From assembly GCF_001945525.1 (NCBI RefSeq), contig NZ_MPJW01000090.1:1-39345 (forward strand): a stretch of 39,345 nt of DNA, in the 5' to 3' direction. Both the position numbers and the translations under genes were made by a program. Below the pieces are notes generated by a model. It was not told the origin of the DNA, ran no database searches, and was given only the letters and a program-made list of their open reading frames with translations. Each line of letters opens with the position of its first letter. The stretch's first letter is position 1. This stretch comes from Ileibacterium valens. GTDB lineage: Bacteria > Bacillota_I > Bacilli_A > Erysipelotrichales > Erysipelotrichaceae. This document shows, in pieces, positions 3,964-35,536 of this stretch.

Positions 3964-3968
3964 AATTG

Positions 3969-3996
3969 AAAAGAACAGCGAAAGCTGTTCTTTTTG
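3969..3996 (+). terminator. Rho-independent terminator of the PTS operon
   Basis: A 9-bp perfect stem AAGAACAGC/GCTGTTCTT (3971-3979 with 3984-3992) encloses a GAAA tetraloop and runs into a T-tract ending at 3995. It starts a few bases after the DUF956 stop codon. The rest of the gap to 4265 contains no recognisable gene and no good promoter consensus. Confidence 0.9.
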
Positions 3997-4265: not shown

Positions 4266-5384
4266 ATGAAATGTAAAAATTGCGGTTACGAGAATATGGA
4301 TGAAGCCAATTTTTGTATTAACTGCGGTACAAAGATTGAAAAAGATGAATCAAACTCTGATGATAAAGTTTCTCTGGATCTGAATAAGGAAGCTGACCAA
4401 TTGATTACAGTAGATCAGAATAAAGAACCTGTCTCTATAGATGATGATGTAGAGCAGAATTCCAATAGCGATGAAGCAAGTGATGATCAGATCACTCCAG
4501 AATGGCATTTCGTTGAAAATAAGGAATCCGTTGGGCCATTCAAGCAAAGTCAAATGGTTGAATTCTATCAACAGGGAAGAATTACAGATTCTACCTATGT
4601 TTGGACACAGGGCATGAGCAACTGGGTTCATCTTGCAGATACTTCTCTTATGGGGCTGATAAATGAATCGAAGGCGGCCAAAGAAGAACACTATCCTGAG
4701 AAAACCTTGGATCAGATTCAAAAAGAAACTGAAACTTTTGATACTTCATATAATGACTACAGTCAGTCTGAACCGAATAAATCGGAAGACTGGTTTTACG
4801 TCGATAACGGTAAATCGGCAGGGCCTTATTCACAGGAAGCTATGATTTCATTAATCAATAATGGGGTCCTGAATCCGGCTTCGTACGTCTGGAAAGAAGG
4901 AATGAATGACTGGACACGTTTAGATCAATCAAATTTGAGCGCTTTTATTCCCAGAAATACAAGAAGCTCTGATTCTGATTATTCTTCATCTCAGACCTAT
5001 CAGAATCAGTATGAAACGCCAATTTCAAACACTGTAATTACTCATTCGGTAATTCTATACATCTTACTGAGTATACTGACCTGCGGTATCTGGTATTTCG
5101 TTTGGGTTTATATGCTGGCTCGTGATATTAACTTGATTGCTGCCCGTCAGCAAAAACCAAAAGGACTCGATCCAGTGCTGTCGTTTATCCTTATCCTGCT
5201 TTCCTGTGGTGTATTCCAGATTTTCTTCTTCTGGAAAGAAGAAAATGTACTTGCCCAGTTCAGAGCAAGAAATTATCAGGTTCAGAACCAGTCGATTCTA
5301 ACTGGGCTGCTGGCTATATTCTGTCCATTAGCTTCCGCTGCTATTATTCAGGATCAGCTGAATTGTCTGATTAAATATGAATAA
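4266..5384 (+). CDS. Zinc-ribbon, double GYF_2 and DUF4234 membrane protein
   Basis: The 372-residue product is modular. A zinc ribbon uses Cys3, Cys6, Cys17 and Cys20 (CKNC ... CINC). An acidic linker follows to about residue 78. Two GYF_2 (DUF4339-like) repeats lie at 80-130 and 176-228, each with an aromatic start (WHFVEN / WFYVDN), a GP[FY]xQ turn and a [YV]VW..GM..W ending. A hydrophobic C-terminus resembles DUF4234 (about 262-335, including SILTCGIWYFVWVYMLARDIN) with a last membrane segment near 345-362. GYF-type folds bind proline-rich peptides in other proteins, so this is plausibly a membrane-anchored adaptor; that is inference. GAGGAA precedes the ATG. The next gene overlaps its end by 8 bp. 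Confidence 0.78.
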   Translation: MKCKNCGYENMDEANFCINCGTKIEKDESNSDDKVSLDLNKEADQLITVDQNKEPVSIDDDVEQNSNSDEASDDQITPEWHFVENKESVGPFKQSQMVEFYQQGRITDSTYVWTQGMSNWVHLADTSLMGLINESKAAKEEHYPEKTLDQIQKETETFDTSYNDYSQSEPNKSEDWFYVDNGKSAGPYSQEAMISLINNGVLNPASYVWKEGMNDWTRLDQSNLSAFIPRNTRSSDSDYSSSQTYQNQYETPISNTVITHSVILYILLSILTCGIWYFVWVYMLARDINLIAARQQKPKGLDPVLSFILILLSCGVFQIFFFWKEENVLAQFRARNYQVQNQSILTGLLAIFCPLASAAIIQDQLNCLIKYE

Positions 5385-5787
5385 GGAAAAGAACATTCAA
5401 AAGCAAACAGACAACTATAATATTCCAGACCTTCCGTTTACTGATCGTAAGGCTCATGAAAGCAATAAAGGAAAGCAGAGAGTTGAAGCTGCTTTCCTTT
5501 TCTTCGTGATCGGCCTGGTTGTGTTTGTTTTTGGCTATCATTGTCCGATCCGTTATATTACTGGGATCGATTGTCCAGGATGCGGAATGACAAGAGCTTT
5601 ACTGGCTTTGTTGAAGGGAGATTTGGCAGCATCAATCGCCTTTCATCCCTTTTTACTGCCATCTATTCTGTTATTTGGAATGACAGTGGTATCTTATTTA
5701 AAATCAAATAAAAAAGCAGCGGAAATTTGTTTGTATATCTGGAGTGCAGGAATGCTCATTTGTTGGATAATAAAGCTTGTAAACTGA
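5377..5787 (+). CDS. DUF2752 family membrane protein
   Basis: This 136-residue protein has a hydrophilic N-terminus (about 35 residues), a first membrane segment (about 38-54), then the DUF2752 signature GIDCPGCGMTRALLALLKGD at about 63-82. Two more membrane helices follow. The CPGCGMTR motif has two conserved cysteines that could bind metal or be redox active; no function is established for the family. Its start overlaps the preceding GYF_2/DUF4234 gene by 8 bp, so the two are translationally coupled and probably act together. The N-terminal tail is longer than in most family members. Confidence 0.8.
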   Translation: MNKEKNIQKQTDNYNIPDLPFTDRKAHESNKGKQRVEAAFLFFVIGLVVFVFGYHCPIRYITGIDCPGCGMTRALLALLKGDLAASIAFHPFLLPSILLFGMTVVSYLKSNKKAAEICLYIWSAGMLICWIIKLVN

Positions 5788-5863
5788 ACGATATACATTA
5801 GGTGAAATATCTATATAATCTTCAGTTTTACTGCTTATCTTAAAGAATTAGGAGCTGACGGTA

Positions 5864-7942
5864 ATGAACTGGATACTTACAATATTATTCCTGGTTGTCT
5901 TCAGTCTGCTGAATATATCAGGAGGATCAGCACTACTGCAGGCGAGTGGTTACAACAATAATTCAAAAATGAAGAGTTGGATTATTGGTTATTTCGCAAT
6001 GTTTTTTATTTTGTTTTTTCCTGGACAGTTGGCTATTCATTTTCATATATCCTGGAATTTGTATGTGATTATCAGCCTGATTTTATTAGCTGGCTTTTAT
6101 GCTTACTCGATCTGGTTTCTTTTTAAAAATAAAAAAACTACCCTATCATTTAAGAAACTGAAATTTGATCAATATATACATAAAAGTATAAAGTTTATAT
6201 TCGATTATTGGCTTTTAATAGTATTCGTAGCCCTGTTTATGGCTTTTTCAATTGCTAATCAGCTTGCCTATTTGTCTATGAATTATGATGACGCTTATTA
6301 CATTGGAAAGATGGTTGATCAGATAGGTTCAGCAAGCATGATGATGGAAAACTATGCGGATGGGGGACTAGACCCGTTAATTAATCTGGATTTTGCCCGT
6401 GTGATGAATACTTATGAAATATCATATGCATTACTTGCATGGATTTCAGGGATTTATCCGGTGTTTTTCATGAGAGTAACTATGGCTGTCTGTTCTTATA
6501 TGTTATTTAGCTTTTCTTTAATGTGTATCGCCAGACAGTTTTTACCTGTGAGCATTAGGCAATTTGTTCTAACTCCTTTCTTTTTGTTTTTATTGCCACA
6601 GGGCTTTTTTATGGAAATGCTGCCGGATAACCTGGTCTTTTATTCGTATGATTTGTGGCAGTTTACGAATGCGGCTTATTATGGCTCCTCTGTGGTTCGC
6701 ATGAGTGGGATTTTCGTTCTGTACTATTTTGCTTATCCGATGATTTCCAAATTTAGCTTCAGAAAACTTTTGATTGTTGCAATGTTAACATTATCGTTGA
6801 CTTCGTTTTCAACAATAGCGGTGAGCCTTTTTATATGTTTTGCTTCAGCAATGGTTTTAATCAAATGTTATTCATCTCTGGTTAAAAGTATCAAAAATCG
6901 AAAATGGATTATATTCATACTATCCTTGATAATCAGCGCAGCTTTGATCTACATTGGATGCAGGTTAAATTCAATCACTGAGCTCAATGAAAAAATGCAG
7001 CGCTTTTTGCAGATCACGGAACAATCAGTCGAAAGATTCTATTCCAAAGATCCGTTTACGTTTTATAGCTGGATACTTATTCCATTATTGTTAATTTTTA
7101 GCTGGCGTAAGTCTGGTTTATATCTCTCATTGTATGCACTGGTATTCTTTTTAATTTTGCTTCCGTTTAGAGCAACGTTGTTACAGTTCTTAATGAGTTG
7201 TGGGGTTTTATTTGTATATAGGCGGGTATTGGCAAGCTATCAGTATCTGATGGTTTTTATATTTGGATTGAGTATTCTTTTGATTCTGTACTGGCCAAGT
7301 CGATGGATGAAAAAGATCAGTTGGATGAAAAAGACCAATTGGATCATCCCAGCTGTTCTTAGCATAATCACTATTCTTGGAACAATTCAAACTTTCGTAA
7401 CCAATCAGGAGGCTTTTAAGAACGATATAAAATTCAACGGAAGCGGAATCAGCAAGTATGGATGGGATTTTTCTCGTCTTCTGAATTTTGATGAGAATAT
7501 GGTACCGCCATTTATTAAAGATCTGGGAGATGAAATAAAAAAGATTAATGAACCGAGAATTCGGTTATATACGCAAGCCCTGTATAGTCCTGGTGATAAT
7601 GGAGAAAATTACGGTCTTAGTCCTGGAAATTTACTGGCGATTTCTTCAAAACCGGCTGTACTTAATTTAGGTGGTCATTTAGGAATAGATCCAGAAGATT
7701 TTAAACGTATTGAATCATTTATAGCAGCTGGCAATTATTCGGAAGAATTTTTGAGTCTTCTTGAGAAAAATAACGTCCCTTATTTTTTATCCACAAATGA
7801 AGATGCGTCTATAGCATTACAACAGCTTGGGGCTGAAGAGCTATTTTCTATACCTATGACAGAAAACAATAAAGCAAAATTATACAGATTTAATTGGATT
7901 TCAAGTGAAGCACCGACTGAATCGAATCAATCTATTCGATAA
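5864..7942 (+). CDS. Large polytopic membrane protein, GT-C/DUF6077-like
   Basis: The 692-residue product has roughly a dozen or more membrane helices between residues 1 and about 515, followed by a soluble C-terminal domain of about 175 residues. After the first group of helices comes SMNYDDAYYIGKMVDQIGSA (acidic pair at 142-143). An acidic pair in this topological position is typical of the first external loop of GT-C glycosyltransferases that use lipid-linked sugars. The overall look also recalls DUF6077 membrane proteins. AGGAG precedes ATG 5864. It lies 76 bp downstream of the DUF2752 gene on the same strand and may be in the same operon. I cannot name a substrate, and the enzyme call is an inference from topology plus the DD motif. 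Confidence 0.6.
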   Translation: MNWILTILFLVVFSLLNISGGSALLQASGYNNNSKMKSWIIGYFAMFFILFFPGQLAIHFHISWNLYVIISLILLAGFYAYSIWFLFKNKKTTLSFKKLKFDQYIHKSIKFIFDYWLLIVFVALFMAFSIANQLAYLSMNYDDAYYIGKMVDQIGSASMMMENYADGGLDPLINLDFARVMNTYEISYALLAWISGIYPVFFMRVTMAVCSYMLFSFSLMCIARQFLPVSIRQFVLTPFFLFLLPQGFFMEMLPDNLVFYSYDLWQFTNAAYYGSSVVRMSGIFVLYYFAYPMISKFSFRKLLIVAMLTLSLTSFSTIAVSLFICFASAMVLIKCYSSLVKSIKNRKWIIFILSLIISAALIYIGCRLNSITELNEKMQRFLQITEQSVERFYSKDPFTFYSWILIPLLLIFSWRKSGLYLSLYALVFFLILLPFRATLLQFLMSCGVLFVYRRVLASYQYLMVFIFGLSILLILYWPSRWMKKISWMKKTNWIIPAVLSIITILGTIQTFVTNQEAFKNDIKFNGSGISKYGWDFSRLLNFDENMVPPFIKDLGDEIKKINEPRIRLYTQALYSPGDNGENYGLSPGNLLAISSKPAVLNLGGHLGIDPEDFKRIESFIAAGNYSEEFLSLLEKNNVPYFLSTNEDASIALQQLGAEELFSIPMTENNKAKLYRFNWISSEAPTESNQSIR

Positions 7943-14554: not shown

Positions 14555-15472
14555 TTGAACTTACTTTCTGCATCTCTGTATTATAGAACAATGAAATCAA
14601 TGGTCCTCAGCCTGATTTGTATGACACTGACATCTCCTTTTTCAAATCGGCTTTTCTATGAAATATCAGATTCGCAAGATTCGGAAATTCCTACCATAAC
14701 GGAGCTTGACCGCTTAGTCGAAGACTCCATTTCCTTATGTGTGGGAACTTCATTTTCCATGAATAAGGCATCGAATACCATGAATGATTATATTGCCCTC
14801 AACCGTCCAGAAAAGCAAAACTGGTCTGTTTCAATCATTGACCTGAATACAGGACAGACCATCGGATACAGCGAATCTGAAAACCAGACTGCTGCCAGTT
14901 CAATCAAATTATTTGTTGCAGGCGCCGTCATGGAACATAGAGATAAGCTGTTAGAGAAATATTCAGAAAATCAGATCGACCAGCTTCTGAGATTGTCGTT
15001 GATTATTTCGGATAACGATTCAGCGACTCAGCTTATCTCCATGCTTGGCAGCGGGAATACCACCAAAGGAAAAGAAATAGTGAATAAATACTGCCAGGAG
15101 CATGGATTTGACTCGACTTTTCTAGGGATCCTTTTTTCAGGATTAGATCCGAGCGGAACCTATAACACCACCAGTGCAAAAGATACCGCCAGATTCATGG
15201 AAGAGATTTATCATCACCGTTTAGCCGGCAGTGAAAAAATTCTCGGATATCTGGCTGATTCTGAGCGGTTAGCAAAAATTCCTTCTGCCATTCCCGAAGG
15301 AATTGCAACGGCCAATAAAACCGGTGAGTTAAATAATACTCAAAATGATACCGCAATCGTCTATGCGAGAAGACCGTTTGTCATCAGCATTCTAATTGAT
15401 GAAGCAGAATACAGTCGGGCAGCGATTGATATACAGGAGCTCACCAGACTGATTTATCCTTATTTCGAGTAA
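14555..15472 (+). CDS. Serine hydrolase of class A beta-lactamase fold
   Basis: The 305-residue protein has the serine penicillin-binding/beta-lactamase signature set: S-x-x-K (Ser115-Ser-Ile-Lys118 in TAASSIKLF), SDN (152-154 in IISDNDSATQL) and KTG (255-257 in ANKTGELN). Domain order and spacing fit the Beta-lactamase2/class A fold. I do not see the ExxLN omega-loop Glu that true class A enzymes use for deacylation; the corresponding stretch reads SGLDPSGTYNTTSAKD. A cell-wall or unknown hydrolase role is therefore more likely than drug resistance. The N-terminal hydrophobic stretch suggests export. The start is uncertain: TTG 14555 with GGAAG just upstream, or ATG 14591 without a clear ribosome binding site. 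Confidence 0.75.
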   Translation: MNLLSASLYYRTMKSMVLSLICMTLTSPFSNRLFYEISDSQDSEIPTITELDRLVEDSISLCVGTSFSMNKASNTMNDYIALNRPEKQNWSVSIIDLNTGQTIGYSESENQTAASSIKLFVAGAVMEHRDKLLEKYSENQIDQLLRLSLIISDNDSATQLISMLGSGNTTKGKEIVNKYCQEHGFDSTFLGILFSGLDPSGTYNTTSAKDTARFMEEIYHHRLAGSEKILGYLADSERLAKIPSAIPEGIATANKTGELNNTQNDTAIVYARRPFVISILIDEAEYSRAAIDIQELTRLIYPYFE

Positions 15473-16578: not shown

Positions 16579-17841
16579 ATGAAATTAACGATTAAAACGA
16601 TTGATAATGACCAATATCTCGATTTTGGTCAGAAACAGGATAATTGGTCCTTTTTACATTCGATCGAGCAAAAAAGAAAATTACAGAACGGTCAATATGA
16701 TACGTCGCTGATTGGCTTTGTCGATGAAAAAGACGAACTGAAGGCTGCCGCTTTAATTGCGAAGGCTCCGGTAGCTAAGATTTATCAGTACTGTCTGATT
16801 CCAGGTGGTATTCTGATGAATTATGAAGATGAAGAGTTAATTAAGGAAACCACAAAAACTTTAAAACCCTGGCTTGCCTCGCAAAACATTTTGTATATGC
16901 AGATGAGTCCCTACCTACCATTAATCGAAAGAGACCAGAATGGTCAGGTTGTAGAAGGTGGATTTGATCATACCAATATTCCTAAACTGTTTAAAAAAGC
17001 AGGATATAAATATCTTCCTCCTGAAAAAGGATATGATCTTTCAAAAGATCCGATGTGGATGTCAGTGCTTTATTTTGATGGTCGGGATATTGACACTCTT
17101 CTTAAGGATATGGATCAGCAGACTAGATGGTCGATCAATCGCGCTCGTAAGTTTGATCTGAGCATCAGAGAGGCAAGGAATGATGCCGATCTGAAAAAAT
17201 TTACCGATATGATGATTCACACCGGGCAAAGAAACAACTTTGATGGTGGTGATGAAGACTATTATCGAAGAGAAATGGCCGCATGGCAGGACAATGCCGA
17301 CTTGTTGCTGGCGTTTATGGAGCCTTCAAAAACCATTGAATCACAGGAACGCCTGAAAGAGGACAGTCAAAATGAGTTGGCGGAAGTAGAGAAGAAGCTT
17401 GAAGAAACTCCATCAAGCAAGAAGTTCAACAAGAAAAAGAAGGTCCTGCTTGAAGCCATTGAACTGGCTGACAAGAAAATTGATGAAGCACAAAAACTTT
17501 GTGAAAAATATGGAGATGAAATTTTGCTTGCCGGCTGTATTTTCCTGAATACAGTCAACGAGACGGTTTACATGCATTCTGGAGCTTACGATGAGTTCTT
17601 TAAATACAACGCTCCATTTGCCATTCATTATGAAGAAATTAAAAGAGCAATCGCAGCTGGAAGAAAATCTTACAATTTCTTTGGAATCAGTGGAAATTTT
17701 AACAAGGATGAAGAGGGATATTCACTTTTCGATTTTAAACGCGGATTTGGAAGTACGGTCGTAGAAAATATGGGAACTCTGATCCTGCCAGTCAAAGATA
17801 TAGAATTTTCGATTTACAATCGTTTAAAAAAGGTCGTTTAG
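16579..17841 (+). CDS. FemABX-type peptidoglycan bridge aminoacyltransferase
   Basis: This 420-residue protein uses aminoacyl-tRNA to add amino acids to the peptidoglycan stem peptide. Fem-type features are the N-terminal GNAT-like half (SLIGFVDEKDELKAAALIAK, then YQYCLIPGGILMNY) and the segment MDQQTRWSINRARKFDLSI. A lysine/glutamate-rich helical arm (about residues 250-318), matching the Fem coiled-coil insertion, follows. The second GNAT domain contains LLAGCIFLN and ends in YNFFGISGNF and LFDFKRGFGS. Length matches FemX/MurM (about 400-420). There is no obvious ribosome binding site directly before ATG 16579; see the leader entry. Which residue it adds cannot be told from the sequence. 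Confidence 0.9.
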   Translation: MKLTIKTIDNDQYLDFGQKQDNWSFLHSIEQKRKLQNGQYDTSLIGFVDEKDELKAAALIAKAPVAKIYQYCLIPGGILMNYEDEELIKETTKTLKPWLASQNILYMQMSPYLPLIERDQNGQVVEGGFDHTNIPKLFKKAGYKYLPPEKGYDLSKDPMWMSVLYFDGRDIDTLLKDMDQQTRWSINRARKFDLSIREARNDADLKKFTDMMIHTGQRNNFDGGDEDYYRREMAAWQDNADLLLAFMEPSKTIESQERLKEDSQNELAEVEKKLEETPSSKKFNKKKKVLLEAIELADKKIDEAQKLCEKYGDEILLAGCIFLNTVNETVYMHSGAYDEFFKYNAPFAIHYEEIKRAIAAGRKSYNFFGISGNFNKDEEGYSLFDFKRGFGSTVVENMGTLILPVKDIEFSIYNRLKKVV

Positions 17842-31282: not shown

Positions 31283-31939
31283 ATGCTTCGTATTGGACTG
31301 GATATTGGATCGACGACGATCAAATGCATTGTTCTTGATGAACAGGATAAAGTGCTTCATTCGAGTTATGATCGTCATCATTCACAGATTATTGCTAAAA
31401 GCAAAGAGGTCATTGAATCATTATCAAAGATGTATTCTGATCCACTTTATATTTCTGTTTCCGGATCAGCGGGGATGGGACTGGCGCAAAAGCTTGACCT
31501 GGATTTTTCACAGGAAGTCTATGCCACCAGAAAAGCCATCCAGCATTTGCTTCCAGAAAGTGATGTGGTAATTGAACTTGGTGGTGAAGATGCCAAGATT
31601 CTTTTCTTTAATGGAGGAATGGACTTCTGCATGAACGGCAGCTGTGCAGGAGGAACTGGATCCTTCATCGATCAGATGGCTTCTTTACTGCAGGTATCTT
31701 CAAAGCAGCTGAATGAACTGGCTAAAAAGGCGCAGCGCTTATATCCAATAGCCAGCCGCTGCGGAGTCTTTGCAAAAAGCGATATCCAGCCTTTGCTCAA
31801 CCAGGGTGCACGAAAAGAAGATATCGCGGCTTCCATCTTTCGATCGGTCGTTTCTCAGACCATTGCAGGGTTAGCTCATGGAAGATCGGTTGAAGGAAAT
31901 GTCGTTTATTTAGGCGGACCTCTGACCTTTTTTTTCTGA
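31283..31939 (+). pseudogene. 2-hydroxyacyl-CoA dehydratase activase, fragment 1 (first ATPase domain)
   Basis: This is the first BadF/BcrA-type ASKHA ATPase domain of a very large activase-related protein. It starts RIGLDIGSTTIKCIVLDEQ (phosphate loop), with VIELGGEDAKI, the iron-sulfur cysteine loop NGSCAGGTGSF and SRCGVFAKSDIQPLLNQGA. AAAGGG precedes ATG 31283. The frame ends at 31939 right after LGGPLTFFF. Reading through a run of eight T's (31928-31935) with one T fewer restores the family sequence [16 protein letters not shown]. The reading frame is therefore broken by a single extra base. This may be a real mutation, a slippage site or a sequencing error. Activases of this type use ATP to reduce a partner dehydratase. 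Confidence 0.8.
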
Positions 31940-32885
31940 GCTGCGAAAATCATTTGATGAAGCTTTGAATGTCAGAGGAATCAATCCTGATCTTTCTTTG
32001 TATTATGTTGCCTTTGGTGCGGCTGCTCTTGCTAAAGGAAAATCCGTAGTTTTAAAAGATATTTTAGCGAAAATGGATGCAGTTGAGCAGATTTTTGATT
32101 TTGAGAGCCTGCCTCCTTTATTTAAAAACGAACAGGAAAAGAAAGAATTTCATTTAAGACATTCGATAGAGCTTCCAAAATTTTCAGATCTTCTCGATGA
32201 GCGGCCAAAAAACTTATATGTGGGAATCGATGCGGGTTCAACAACGACTAAATGCGCTGCAATTGATGAAATGGGAAGGTTGTGTTTTTCCAGTTATGAT
32301 TTTTCAGGCGGAACTCCCATTGAGCATGTTCGAAAGTTCTTATTAGATGTTCAGGAGCAGTTTCCAGATGCATCGATTGCAGCCAGTGCAGCGACTGGAT
32401 ATGGAGAAGAGCTGATTCAGGCAGCTTTTCGGGTTGATTTTGGAGTGGTTGAAACTATCGCCCATTATTTAGGAGCCCAAACTTATGATTCAGAGGTAGA
32501 TTTCATTATTGATATCGGTGGACAGGATATCAAATGCTTTCACATTCATGAGCAGACTGTTGATCAGATTTATTTAAACGAAGCGTGTTCTTCAGGCTGC
32601 GGCTCATTTCTGTCGGCTTTTGCACAGACTCTCGGTTATGATATGGAGACTTTTTCAAAGAAAGCCCTTGAAAGCAGACACCCCGTTGATCTTGGAAGCC
32701 GCTGTACAGTTTTTATGAATTCAAGAGTCAAGCAGGCTCAGAAAGATGGAGCCTCATTAGAAGACATAGCGGCAGGCCTGGCGATTTCAGTGGTAAAAAA
32801 TGCTTTATATAAAGTGATTCGAATACCAAAGGGGCAAAAACCCGGAGAACACATTCTGGTGCAGGGGGGGGACATTCTTAAATGA
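31935..32885 (+). pseudogene. 2-hydroxyacyl-CoA dehydratase activase, fragment 2 (second ATPase domain)
   Basis: This continues fragment 1 in the +1 frame. After [19 protein letters not shown] comes a second complete ASKHA domain: [47 protein letters not shown], the cysteine loop [11 protein letters not shown] and [13 protein letters not shown]. No ribosome binding site or start codon serves this part alone. The frame stops at 32885 shortly after a run of eight G's (32864-32871). Dropping one G restores [18 protein letters not shown], the expected family continuation. Tandem ATPase domains in one chain are normal for the giant (about 1400-residue) members of this family. Confidence 0.8.
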
Positions 32886-34368
32886 TGCCGTCCTTCGCGC
32901 CTTTGAGCTTGAAACGAACGCTACAGTCATCAGACCTGCGATGGCCTCGCTGATGGGCGCATATGGTGCGGCTCTTTATGCCAGATCACAACAGGAGACA
33001 CTTTCTGCAGGCTCAACGATTCTAAAAAAGGAGCAGCTAAGAAATTTTCAGCATCAGACCAGAACCTTTCGCTGCAAAGGTTGTACAAATTCCTGTTTAT
33101 TAACCATGAATTCTTTCGGACATCTAAAAACTCACATCTCTGGTAACCGATGCGATAAACCTCTCGTAAAGCGAAAGTCACAAAATGCCAATAATATCTA
33201 TGAATATAAAAGGATAAAACTAGCAGCTTTTGACTCATTTGAAACAGAGAAAAAGACAATAGGAATTCCACTGGTTCTCAATATGTACGAACTTCTTCCT
33301 TTCTGGCATACTCTGTTTTCACGACTTGGATTTGGAGTAACGGTATCGGGCTTTTCAGATGCGAAACTGTATCACTCAGGCCAGTCAAAAATTCCAAGCG
33401 ATACAGTCTGCTATCCTGCGAAGCTTTCTCATGGTCATATCGAACGCCTGAAGAAAATGAAGTGCGATCATATCTTCTGGCCTTGTCTTTCTTATAACCT
33501 GGATGAAGGAAAGAGTGTAAACCATTATAATTGTCCCATTGTGGCTTATTATGCTGAATCCGCTCAGAGTACAAACTCTGGTCCCGAGATTCTAAGACCT
33601 TATTTTGGGATCCATCGGCCAAAGGATTTTAAAAAGCGATTCACAAAATGGATTCGCGATGAAATCGATCCAACCCTATCGGCAATTCAGATTCATCGTA
33701 CCATTGATTATGCTTATCAGGCTTATTACGACTATATGGATGATGTTGCCAGGATGGCTGATTCATGGCTTGAAGAGGCAAGAAAGAAAAAACAGAAAAT
33801 TATCATTTTATGCGGACGGCCTTATCATATTGATCCTGAAGTGATTCATGGAATTGATCAGTACCTGACTTCTTTGGGGTGTCTTGTTCTATCGGAAGAT
33901 TCGATTGCCCACCATACGAAAAAGGCGGATACAGATGTGTTAAATCAATGGACTTATCATGCAAGACTCTATGCAGCGGCTGAATATGTGGCAAAAATCA
34001 ATAGTCCTGATTTGCTTCTGGTGCAGCTTGTCAGTTTTGGATGCGGCGTCGACGCCATCACTGCGGATGAAGTCAGAGCCATCCTTGAAGACAGTTCTCA
34101 GTTATATACCCAGATTAAGATCGATGAAACTTCAAATCTGGGAGCCATCCGCATTCGACTTCGTTCTATGCTTGCAGCCGCCGATTCTCAGTGGAATCCA
34201 AAGGGATCCAGTTCACTTCAGAATCTGAAAAGAGAACAGAAGCCTGATCATGAAACAGAGGAGAAGTATGACCAATCGAGTAAGCCAACCGGTATTCACC
34301 AGAGAAATGAAACAAACCCATACCATCCTTTTTCCAAACATGCTCGACATTCATTTCCGCTTTCTTGA
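32872..34368 (+). pseudogene. 2-hydroxyacyl-CoA dehydratase activase, fragment 3 (DUF2229 region)
   Basis: This continues from the G8 run in a third frame. It finishes the second ATPase domain ([14 protein letters not shown]), followed by a cysteine cluster FRCKGCTNSCLLTMNSF and GNRCDKPL that likely binds an Fe-S cluster. The DUF2229 (CoA-enzyme-activase) region comes next: GIPLVLNMYELLPFWHTLF, SDTVCYPAKLSHGHIE, IILCGRPYHIDPEVIHGI and VQLVSFGCGVDAITADEV. Family similarity stops near LGAIRIRLRSMLAA (about 34183). The last 45-60 codons, up to the stop at 34368, look out of frame, because the family sequence continues in the overlapping gene at 34268. Confidence 0.78.
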
Positions 34369-35536
34369 AAATATCCTCAATGCAAGCGGCTATCATGCCA
34401 TGCGCCTGATGAATGAAGGAGCGTCGATCTGTGAACTTGGATTGCAGTATGTTCATAACGATACCTGTTATCCAGCTCTTTTAACGATCGGGCAGATGCT
34501 CGATGCTCTTTTGAATGGAATGGCAGATCCAGGTCATACTGCTCTGATTCTGCCGCAGACGGGCGGCGGCTGCAGAGCAAGCAATTATGTCTTTTTACTG
34601 CGAAAGGCCCTGGATGCGGCTGGTTATCAGCAGGTTCCGGTGATTTCTCTGAATATTTCGGGTCTGGATTCGCAGCCTGGATTTGATCTGAATTTGCCTT
34701 TGCTTCGAAAAATGCTCGCAGCTATGGCCTATGGGGATTTACTGATGGCATTATCCAATCAGACTTCTCCCTACGAAACCCATAAAGGGCAGACGGAAGA
34801 GCTGGTGGCAGCGTGGATCAATGAGCTGAGTCAACATTTTAATGAAGGACATGGATATGATCTGAAGACGATGAAAAGAAATGCGGCTAAGATCGCGCAA
34901 AGCTTTCATCAGATTCCAGTGAATTGTATTCCAAAAATCAAGTGTGGAATTGTTGGAGAAATCTATGTAAAGTATTCTGCCTTGGCCAATAATCATCTCG
35001 AGGATTTTTTGAAGAATAACGATTGCGAAGTCATGGTCCCTGGAATTATGCAGTTTTTGCTTTATGCGGCCGATATACCCATTGAAGATGCCAGACGGTA
35101 TGGAGGAAGAAAAAGCTCTCAGCTGATGTCGATAGCCATGTTTGAATTTTTGCAGAAGTATGAATCTTTGATGCTTGATGCCGTTGCACAGTATTCTGAA
35201 TTTACTGTTCCCGCTTCATATAAAGAGCTCAAGGAATTAGGCGCCGAAATGATTTCTACTGGATGCAAGATGGGAGAAGGATGGTTATTAAGTGCTGAAA
35301 TGGCCGAACTGGCCAGCAAGGGATATGACAATATCATTTGTGTGCAGCCGTTTGGCTGTCTGCCGAACCATATTATTGGTAAAGCAATGATGGGACGAAT
35401 TCAAAAAAAGTATCCTAATGCCAATGTCACAGCCATTGACTATGATCCAGGATCCGCTAAAGTGAATCAGGAAAATAGACTCAGACTTCTTCTTTCAATC
35501 GCCCAGGAATCCTTACAGGATCAATTCGAATCGTAA
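34268..35536 (+). CDS. Activase-related C-terminal part, 2-hydroxyacyl-CoA dehydratase-like
   Basis: This 422-residue protein corresponds to the C-terminal third of giant activase-related proteins and resembles the D-component fold of 2-hydroxyacyl-CoA dehydratases. Features are QPVFTREMKQTHTILFPNM near the N-terminus, YVHNDTCYPALLTIGQ, ALILPQTGGGCRASNYVF, the tail ICVQPFGCLPNHIIGKAMMG and AIDYDPGSAKVNQENRL. Conserved cysteines in DTCYPA, GGGCRA and FGCLPN suggest Fe-S binding. It overlaps fragment 3 by 101 bp in another frame. AGAGGAG four bases before ATG 34268 gives it its own good start, so it may be a natural separate gene; in many relatives it is fused to the upstream part. Confidence 0.75.
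   Translation: MTNRVSQPVFTREMKQTHTILFPNMLDIHFRFLENILNASGYHAMRLMNEGASICELGLQYVHNDTCYPALLTIGQMLDALLNGMADPGHTALILPQTGGGCRASNYVFLLRKALDAAGYQQVPVISLNISGLDSQPGFDLNLPLLRKMLAAMAYGDLLMALSNQTSPYETHKGQTEELVAAWINELSQHFNEGHGYDLKTMKRNAAKIAQSFHQIPVNCIPKIKCGIVGEIYVKYSALANNHLEDFLKNNDCEVMVPGIMQFLLYAADIPIEDARRYGGRKSSQLMSIAMFEFLQKYESLMLDAVAQYSEFTVPASYKELKELGAEMISTGCKMGEGWLLSAEMAELASKGYDNIICVQPFGCLPNHIIGKAMMGRIQKKYPNANVTAIDYDPGSAKVNQENRLRLLLSIAQESLQDQFES

Follow-up and report, generated by a model that had tools for sequence, protein, structure and literature searches.

We analysed a 39,345-nucleotide stretch of the Ileibacterium valens genome (contig NZ_MPJW01000090.1, assembly GCF_001945525.1), hereafter the window, and focused on three plus-strand open reading frames (ORFs) at positions 4266-7942 (genes 1 to 3, Table 1). 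The favored explanation, to which we give a probability of roughly 0.6, is that the cluster consists of two independent units lying side by side in this lineage. The first is a membrane pair, a zinc-ribbon/GYF_2/DUF4234 protein and a DUF2752 protein, conserved independently of gene 3, and the second is a displaced GT-C transferase of the DUF6077 family resembling GacL of streptococcal polysaccharide synthesis.

An earlier reading of these genes (the sequence-only reading) had given their domain content, the 8-bp overlap of genes 1 and 2 and the 76-bp gap between genes 2 and 3, all of which agree with the ORFs and with Pfam matches above the curated cut-offs. It had further proposed a single membrane complex of all three proteins, perhaps acting in envelope glycan or protein modification. 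The complex finds no support in the comparative data below, and the envelope glycan guess was a good one, as relatives of gene 3 lie in polysaccharide clusters. The useful results are the pairing rule for DUF2752 and the assignment of DUF6077 to the GT-C enzymes.

Table 1. Features of the three-gene cluster (window positions) and of the GT2 and DUF2304 gene pair found on C247, another contig of this genome, G000 (positions in locus L103)
Feature	Position	Strand	Description
Intrinsic terminator of the upstream phosphotransferase system (PTS)/DUF956 operon	3967..3996	+	13-bp stem, then T-run; upstream limit of the cluster
Gene 1	4266..5384	+	372 aa; Zn ribbon, two GYF_2, DUF4234
Gene 2	5377..5787	+	136 aa; DUF2752 membrane protein, cysteine triad C56, C66, C69
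Possible promoter of gene 3	5792..5819	+	TATACA-16-TATAAT
Gene 3	5864..7942	+	692 aa; DUF6077, predicted GT-C glycosyltransferase; D142-D143
GT2 gene	L103 6529-7236		DxDxQ motif
DUF2304 gene	L103 7236-7703		Next to GT2

Conserved pairing of DUF2752 with DUF4234 or TM2 proteins

DUF2752 is present in 39 of the 148 genomes sampled from the order. We compared 57 DUF2752 loci, made up of 40 neighborhoods from the order, 16 more from the class and the window itself, and called partner classes with profiles built in this analysis, counting as a partner only a same-strand gene no more than 150 bp from the DUF2752 gene. Partners were found at 49 loci, 28 of them of the DUF4234 type (8 with a zinc-ribbon/GYF head and 20 bare) and 21 of the TM2 type (two of these, in L073 and L107, assigned by eye), and no partner was found at the other 8; Pfam confirmed the TM2 and DUF4234 identities in example partners. 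The DUF2752 gene is usually the second of the pair and mostly overlaps its partner by 1-29 bp or abuts it, the arrangement seen in genes 1 and 2. The only DUF4234 of this genome is the one in gene 1, beside DUF2752, which makes a chance pairing very improbable. Tandem-GYF_2 genes likewise adjoin DUF2752 in eight of the nine genomes of the order that have one (the exception is G139).

Partner type changes seven times on the DUF2752 tree, with at least two changes forced by well-supported branches, and shuffled labels need 16. Presence or absence of CxxCG in the DUF2752 protein was not significantly associated with partner type (p = 0.066), a comparison confounded by kinship. As the same position is filled by two different Pfam families, a complex of DUF2752 with its partner is the simplest inference. 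Our search of the literature on bacterial TM2/CD225 neighborhoods found nothing. DUF2752, DUF4234 and bacterial TM2 proteins can now be treated as one testable two-protein module, the first hypothesis for these small membrane proteins.

A conserved neighborhood had been set beforehand as the test of the proposed cluster, and the pair of genes 1 and 2 is conserved in this way but gene 3 is not: the three genes form one cluster in this genome, and across relatives only the first two stay together. Across samples of 148 genomes of the order and 295 of the phylum, this genome is the sole one in which DUF6077 adjoins DUF2752, and a DUF6077 gene is absent from the surroundings of all the other 56 DUF2752 loci. 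Relatives with both families keep the units apart, at a distance of 46 kb in G046 and on different contigs in G001, G145, G073, G089, and G120. With adjacency limited to this genome, a three-protein complex lacks comparative support; a functional link or shared expression of the three genes restricted to this species is possible. A weak GT-C profile match near DUF2752 in L117 was rejected as spurious, the ORF concerned encoding an unrelated 785-aa membrane protein.

Genes 1 and 2

Gene 1 matches the Pfam families Zn_Ribbon_1 (residues 2-23), GYF_2 (about 79-125 and 176-221), and DUF4234, its membrane domain (261-327). On inspection, both GYF_2 copies (combined E 5e-33) retain the GPF/GPY and VW..GM..W cores, so that the conserved aromatic core of the GYF domain is present twice, and the first GYF region matches by sequence the solved GYF domain of a gliding-motility protein (7z3c). 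GYF domains in other proteins bind proline-rich peptides. We infer that the zinc-ribbon and GYF part of gene 1 serves in the cytoplasm as an adaptor attached to a membrane module. Many genomes of the order also have single GYF_2 matches in short ORFs (often about 60-140 aa) away from DUF2752 genes, possibly a separate small family (for example, G128:C17:31634 and G160:C16:3533).

Gene 2 belongs to DUF2752 (PF10825; 70.7 bits against a cut-off of 27, E 1e-19), and the CPGCGMTR motif noted in the sequence-only reading begins at residue 66. C56, C66, P67, and C69 are each at least 90% conserved among homologues. One homologue (L082 3860-4225) has lost all three cysteines and retains its TM2 neighbor, a joint loss that fits a joint disulfide or metal site. 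The structure model (predicted local distance difference test, pLDDT, 84; predicted template modeling score, pTM, 0.58) is built of three long helices, the first two separated by short ones, and a fold search against the PDB matched no known fold; the PDB sequences, searched with the DUF2752 and DUF6077 profiles, also gave no match. Basic residues flank the N-terminus and occupy the loop (KSNKK) between the second and third long helices, a placement that by the positive-inside rule would locate the segment with the cysteines on the outer side of the membrane, at its face. DUF2752 members are without an assigned function in the literature searched, in which we found no mention of either DUF2752 or DUF6077. 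In the proposed mechanism, DUF2752, with its cysteine triad at the outer membrane face, would work together with the small membrane domain of its partner; in this genome the cytoplasmic zinc-ribbon and GYF domains of that partner may tie the module to other proteins.

Gene 3 as a predicted GT-C glycosyltransferase

Residues 5-357 of gene 3 match DUF6077 (PF19554; 42.1 bits against a curated cut-off of 27, E 6e-11), a family without an assigned function in Pfam. The Pfam search gave no PMT match, so gene 3 lacks the PMT-2 domain that marks the GacL family. The GT-C-like character claimed for this protein was upheld by structure comparison: with an AlphaFold2 model built from 17 homologues (pLDDT 76.5, pTM 0.84), the 19 top fold matches in the PDB are all GT-C enzymes or complexes containing one, including DPY19 (the best, E 3.2e-4, template modeling score 0.39), STT3 in oligosaccharyltransferase complexes, archaeal AglB, AftD, and PglB, and beyond them only transporters appear, at noise level. 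The moderate scores (about 0.4) indicate likeness at the level of fold and no close kinship. Several of the same structures are among the top HHpred matches named for GT-C enzymes of wall glycosylation (PMC8035078).

The acidic pair pointed out previously is D142-D143 in the segment NYDDAYYIGK, and D142 is nearly invariant in the 17 homologues. By the positive-inside rule the loop carrying this DxD-like motif is probably extracytoplasmic. After the last predicted membrane helix (about residue 513) the model forms a mixed alpha/beta domain, the soluble C-terminal domain expected from the sequence. The best fold matches and the conserved aspartate pair thus suggest that gene 3 encodes a GT-C glycosyltransferase, and the family gains a testable role, that of a GacL-like transferase in the decoration of rhamnose polysaccharide.

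Proposed link to a donor synthase and an empty operon slot

All five closest relatives of gene 3 (L009, L084, L010, L086, and L011) directly adjoin a GT2 gene and a DUF2304 gene, and the two occur within about 5 kb in 13 of the 22 DUF6077 loci of relatives examined. The GT2 proteins that were checked contain DxDxQ, a proposed hallmark of polyisoprenyl-phosphate glycosyltransferases (PMC10821137). In the group A carbohydrate system, N-acetylglucosamine (GlcNAc)-P-undecaprenol is the product of GacI, whose activity a small membrane protein, GacJ, stimulates, and the GT-C enzyme GacL is thought to move that sugar onto rhamnan (PMC8035078, PMC10821137). The gene 3 protein falls in a clade with L084, L086, L009, L010, L085, and L091 (support 100/99). 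In L011 (1-3223, genome G028) two tandem DUF6077 genes follow one GT2 and DUF2304 pair, suggesting a single donor that feeds two transferases.

This genome also encodes the GacI/J/K/L-type combination of a DxDxQ GT2 with a small membrane protein of the DUF2304 type, on contig C247 (Table 1), where its only DUF2304 gene stands. Judging by position and size, we take DUF2304 to be the probable GacJ-like partner. The C247 cluster holds homologues of rmlA, rmlC, rmlB, and rmlD, as expected of a deoxythymidine diphosphate (dTDP)-rhamnose polysaccharide cluster, and a flippase-like membrane protein of 424 aa without a Pfam match (L012 11987-13261). The GT2 operons of the five closest relatives contain the GT-C gene and that of this genome does not. 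The order in G053 (L010) and G145 (L086) is GT2, DUF2304, DUF6077, MerR-methyltransferase, rmlA, rmlC, rmlB, and here it is GT2, DUF2304, MerR-methyltransferase, rmlA, rmlC, rmlB, rmlD, leaving the DUF6077 slot empty; the genes from MerR to rmlB share 48-85% identity between this genome and the slot-holding relatives. At 34.7%, the G+C content of gene 3 resembles that of the C247 cluster (35-38%) more than the 40.8% averaged over the window. The fusion of a MerR helix-turn-helix to a methyltransferase ahead of rmlA was seen in three genomes (L010 10138-11283, L086 8502-9665, and L103 7707-8900) and is perhaps a regulator or a sugar methylase of the polysaccharide.

Judged from its fold, kinship, acidic pair, and the empty slot, gene 3 probably moved out of the C247 operon, which we regard as the best reading of its origin. 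The GacI/GacJ-like GT2 and DUF2304 pair on C247 would then make an undecaprenyl-phosphate sugar donor, from which the gene 3 protein would take the sugar outside the membrane and add it to a rhamnose-containing surface polysaccharide.

Alternative explanations

Several observations weigh against two units and against relocation of gene 3. Genes 2 and 3 may be co-transcribed, as they lie 76 bp apart and no terminator was found between them. With no more than about 30% identity to the relatives that hold the slot, and with a long branch (1.67), gene 3 may have been acquired independently instead of being the same gene relocated. The C247 cluster contains a second, more distant DUF6077 gene (653 aa, L012 8101-10062), from a different clade, which could share the same donor, and the assembly is in 291 contigs. 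The divergence of gene 3 and the presence of this second gene also favor a rather unlikely alternative, in which gene 3 is a separately acquired GT-C that modifies a different acceptor (a protein, teichoic acid or some other wall polymer), using sugar from the same or another lipid-linked donor. There is precedent for such an arrangement in YfhO and GtlB, GT-C enzymes encoded away from their GT-A partner and acting on lipoteichoic or wall teichoic acid (PMC8035078). Separate acquisition is opposed by the well-supported clade shared with relatives tied directly to GT2 and DUF2304, by the intact motif, and by the existence of an empty slot in the same genome. That gene 3 is instead a decaying copy, under weak constraint since leaving its operon and doing nothing important, would account for the long end branch and the separation from the donor synthase; its full-length 692-aa frame, free of stops and retaining the acidic motif and other invariant residues, makes this very improbable.

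The shared strand, the close spacing of genes 2 and 3, and a G+C content below the window mean in all three genes are consistent with one membrane complex in which the zinc-ribbon/GYF protein and DUF2752 recruit or regulate the glycosyltransferase. We consider this unlikely, given that DUF6077 adjoins DUF2752 nowhere else and is kept apart from it in the relatives named above, and that the top promoter-like match of the region falls between genes 2 and 3 (such matches being no more frequent in the region than in shuffles). A further reading, quite unlikely as a whole, makes DUF2752 the core of a widespread bacterial membrane module not described before, with DUF4234 or TM2 as partner and exchangeable cytoplasmic heads (Zn ribbon, GYF); in this lineage the module would have captured and come to control a GT-C, switching surface decoration in response to a cytoplasmic peptide or metal signal. 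PADLOC matched none of the three genes, which therefore do not qualify as an anti-phage defense system. We retain the explanation of a conserved membrane pair beside a probably displaced transferase.

Comparison with known systems

The closest parallel for gene 3 is the GacI/GacJ/GacK/GacL system of the Streptococcus pyogenes group A carbohydrate, in which a DxDxQ GT2 and a small membrane protein make an undecaprenyl-phosphate sugar that a GT-C enzyme uses outside on rhamnose polysaccharide (PMC8035078, PMC10821137). Relatives of gene 3 adjoin GT2 and DUF2304 within dTDP-rhamnose gene clusters; however, GacL has a PMT-2 domain (PMC8035078) where gene 3 has DUF6077, and the GT-C gene here is detached from the donor genes. 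Detachment is shared with YfhO and GtlB of the CsbB/GtcA-type glycosylation systems, which differ in belonging to other Pfam families, the GT2 and DUF2304 genes here being of GacI/GacJ rather than CsbB type.

Genes 1 and 2 are members of the DUF2752 group with DUF4234 or TM2 neighbors and show its typical overlapping two-gene order, although the zinc-ribbon/GYF head sets them apart from most such pairs. A membrane protein that likewise bears a zinc ribbon and a GYF region is the Myxococcus gliding motility protein GltJ (AglX), which the 7z3c match also brings to mind. The NCBIfam GltJ model matches gene 1 weakly, at 47 bits against an equivalog cut-off of 450, and gene 1 differs in having two GYF copies, DUF4234 in place of the GltJ membrane part, and no motility genes nearby; the literature searched on the zinc ribbon and GYF domain of GltJ yielded nothing. 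Paired GYF domains joined to a transmembrane region are also known from the GAP1-N2 GTPase conflict systems (PMC7159879), but there they are associated with GTPase/GAP1 genes, in planctomycetes.

Other features of the window

At 31283-35536 a gene resembling the activase of 2-hydroxyacyl-CoA dehydratase, with two BcrAD_BadFG parts followed by DUF2229, is broken up over consecutive frames. The first two breaks coincide with homopolymers, eight T and eight G long; sequencing errors at homopolymers or a truly broken gene would explain the split. The window further encodes a serine beta-lactamase-like protein (Beta-lactamase2, 14555-15472) and a FemAB-family peptidoglycan aminoacyltransferase (16579-17841).

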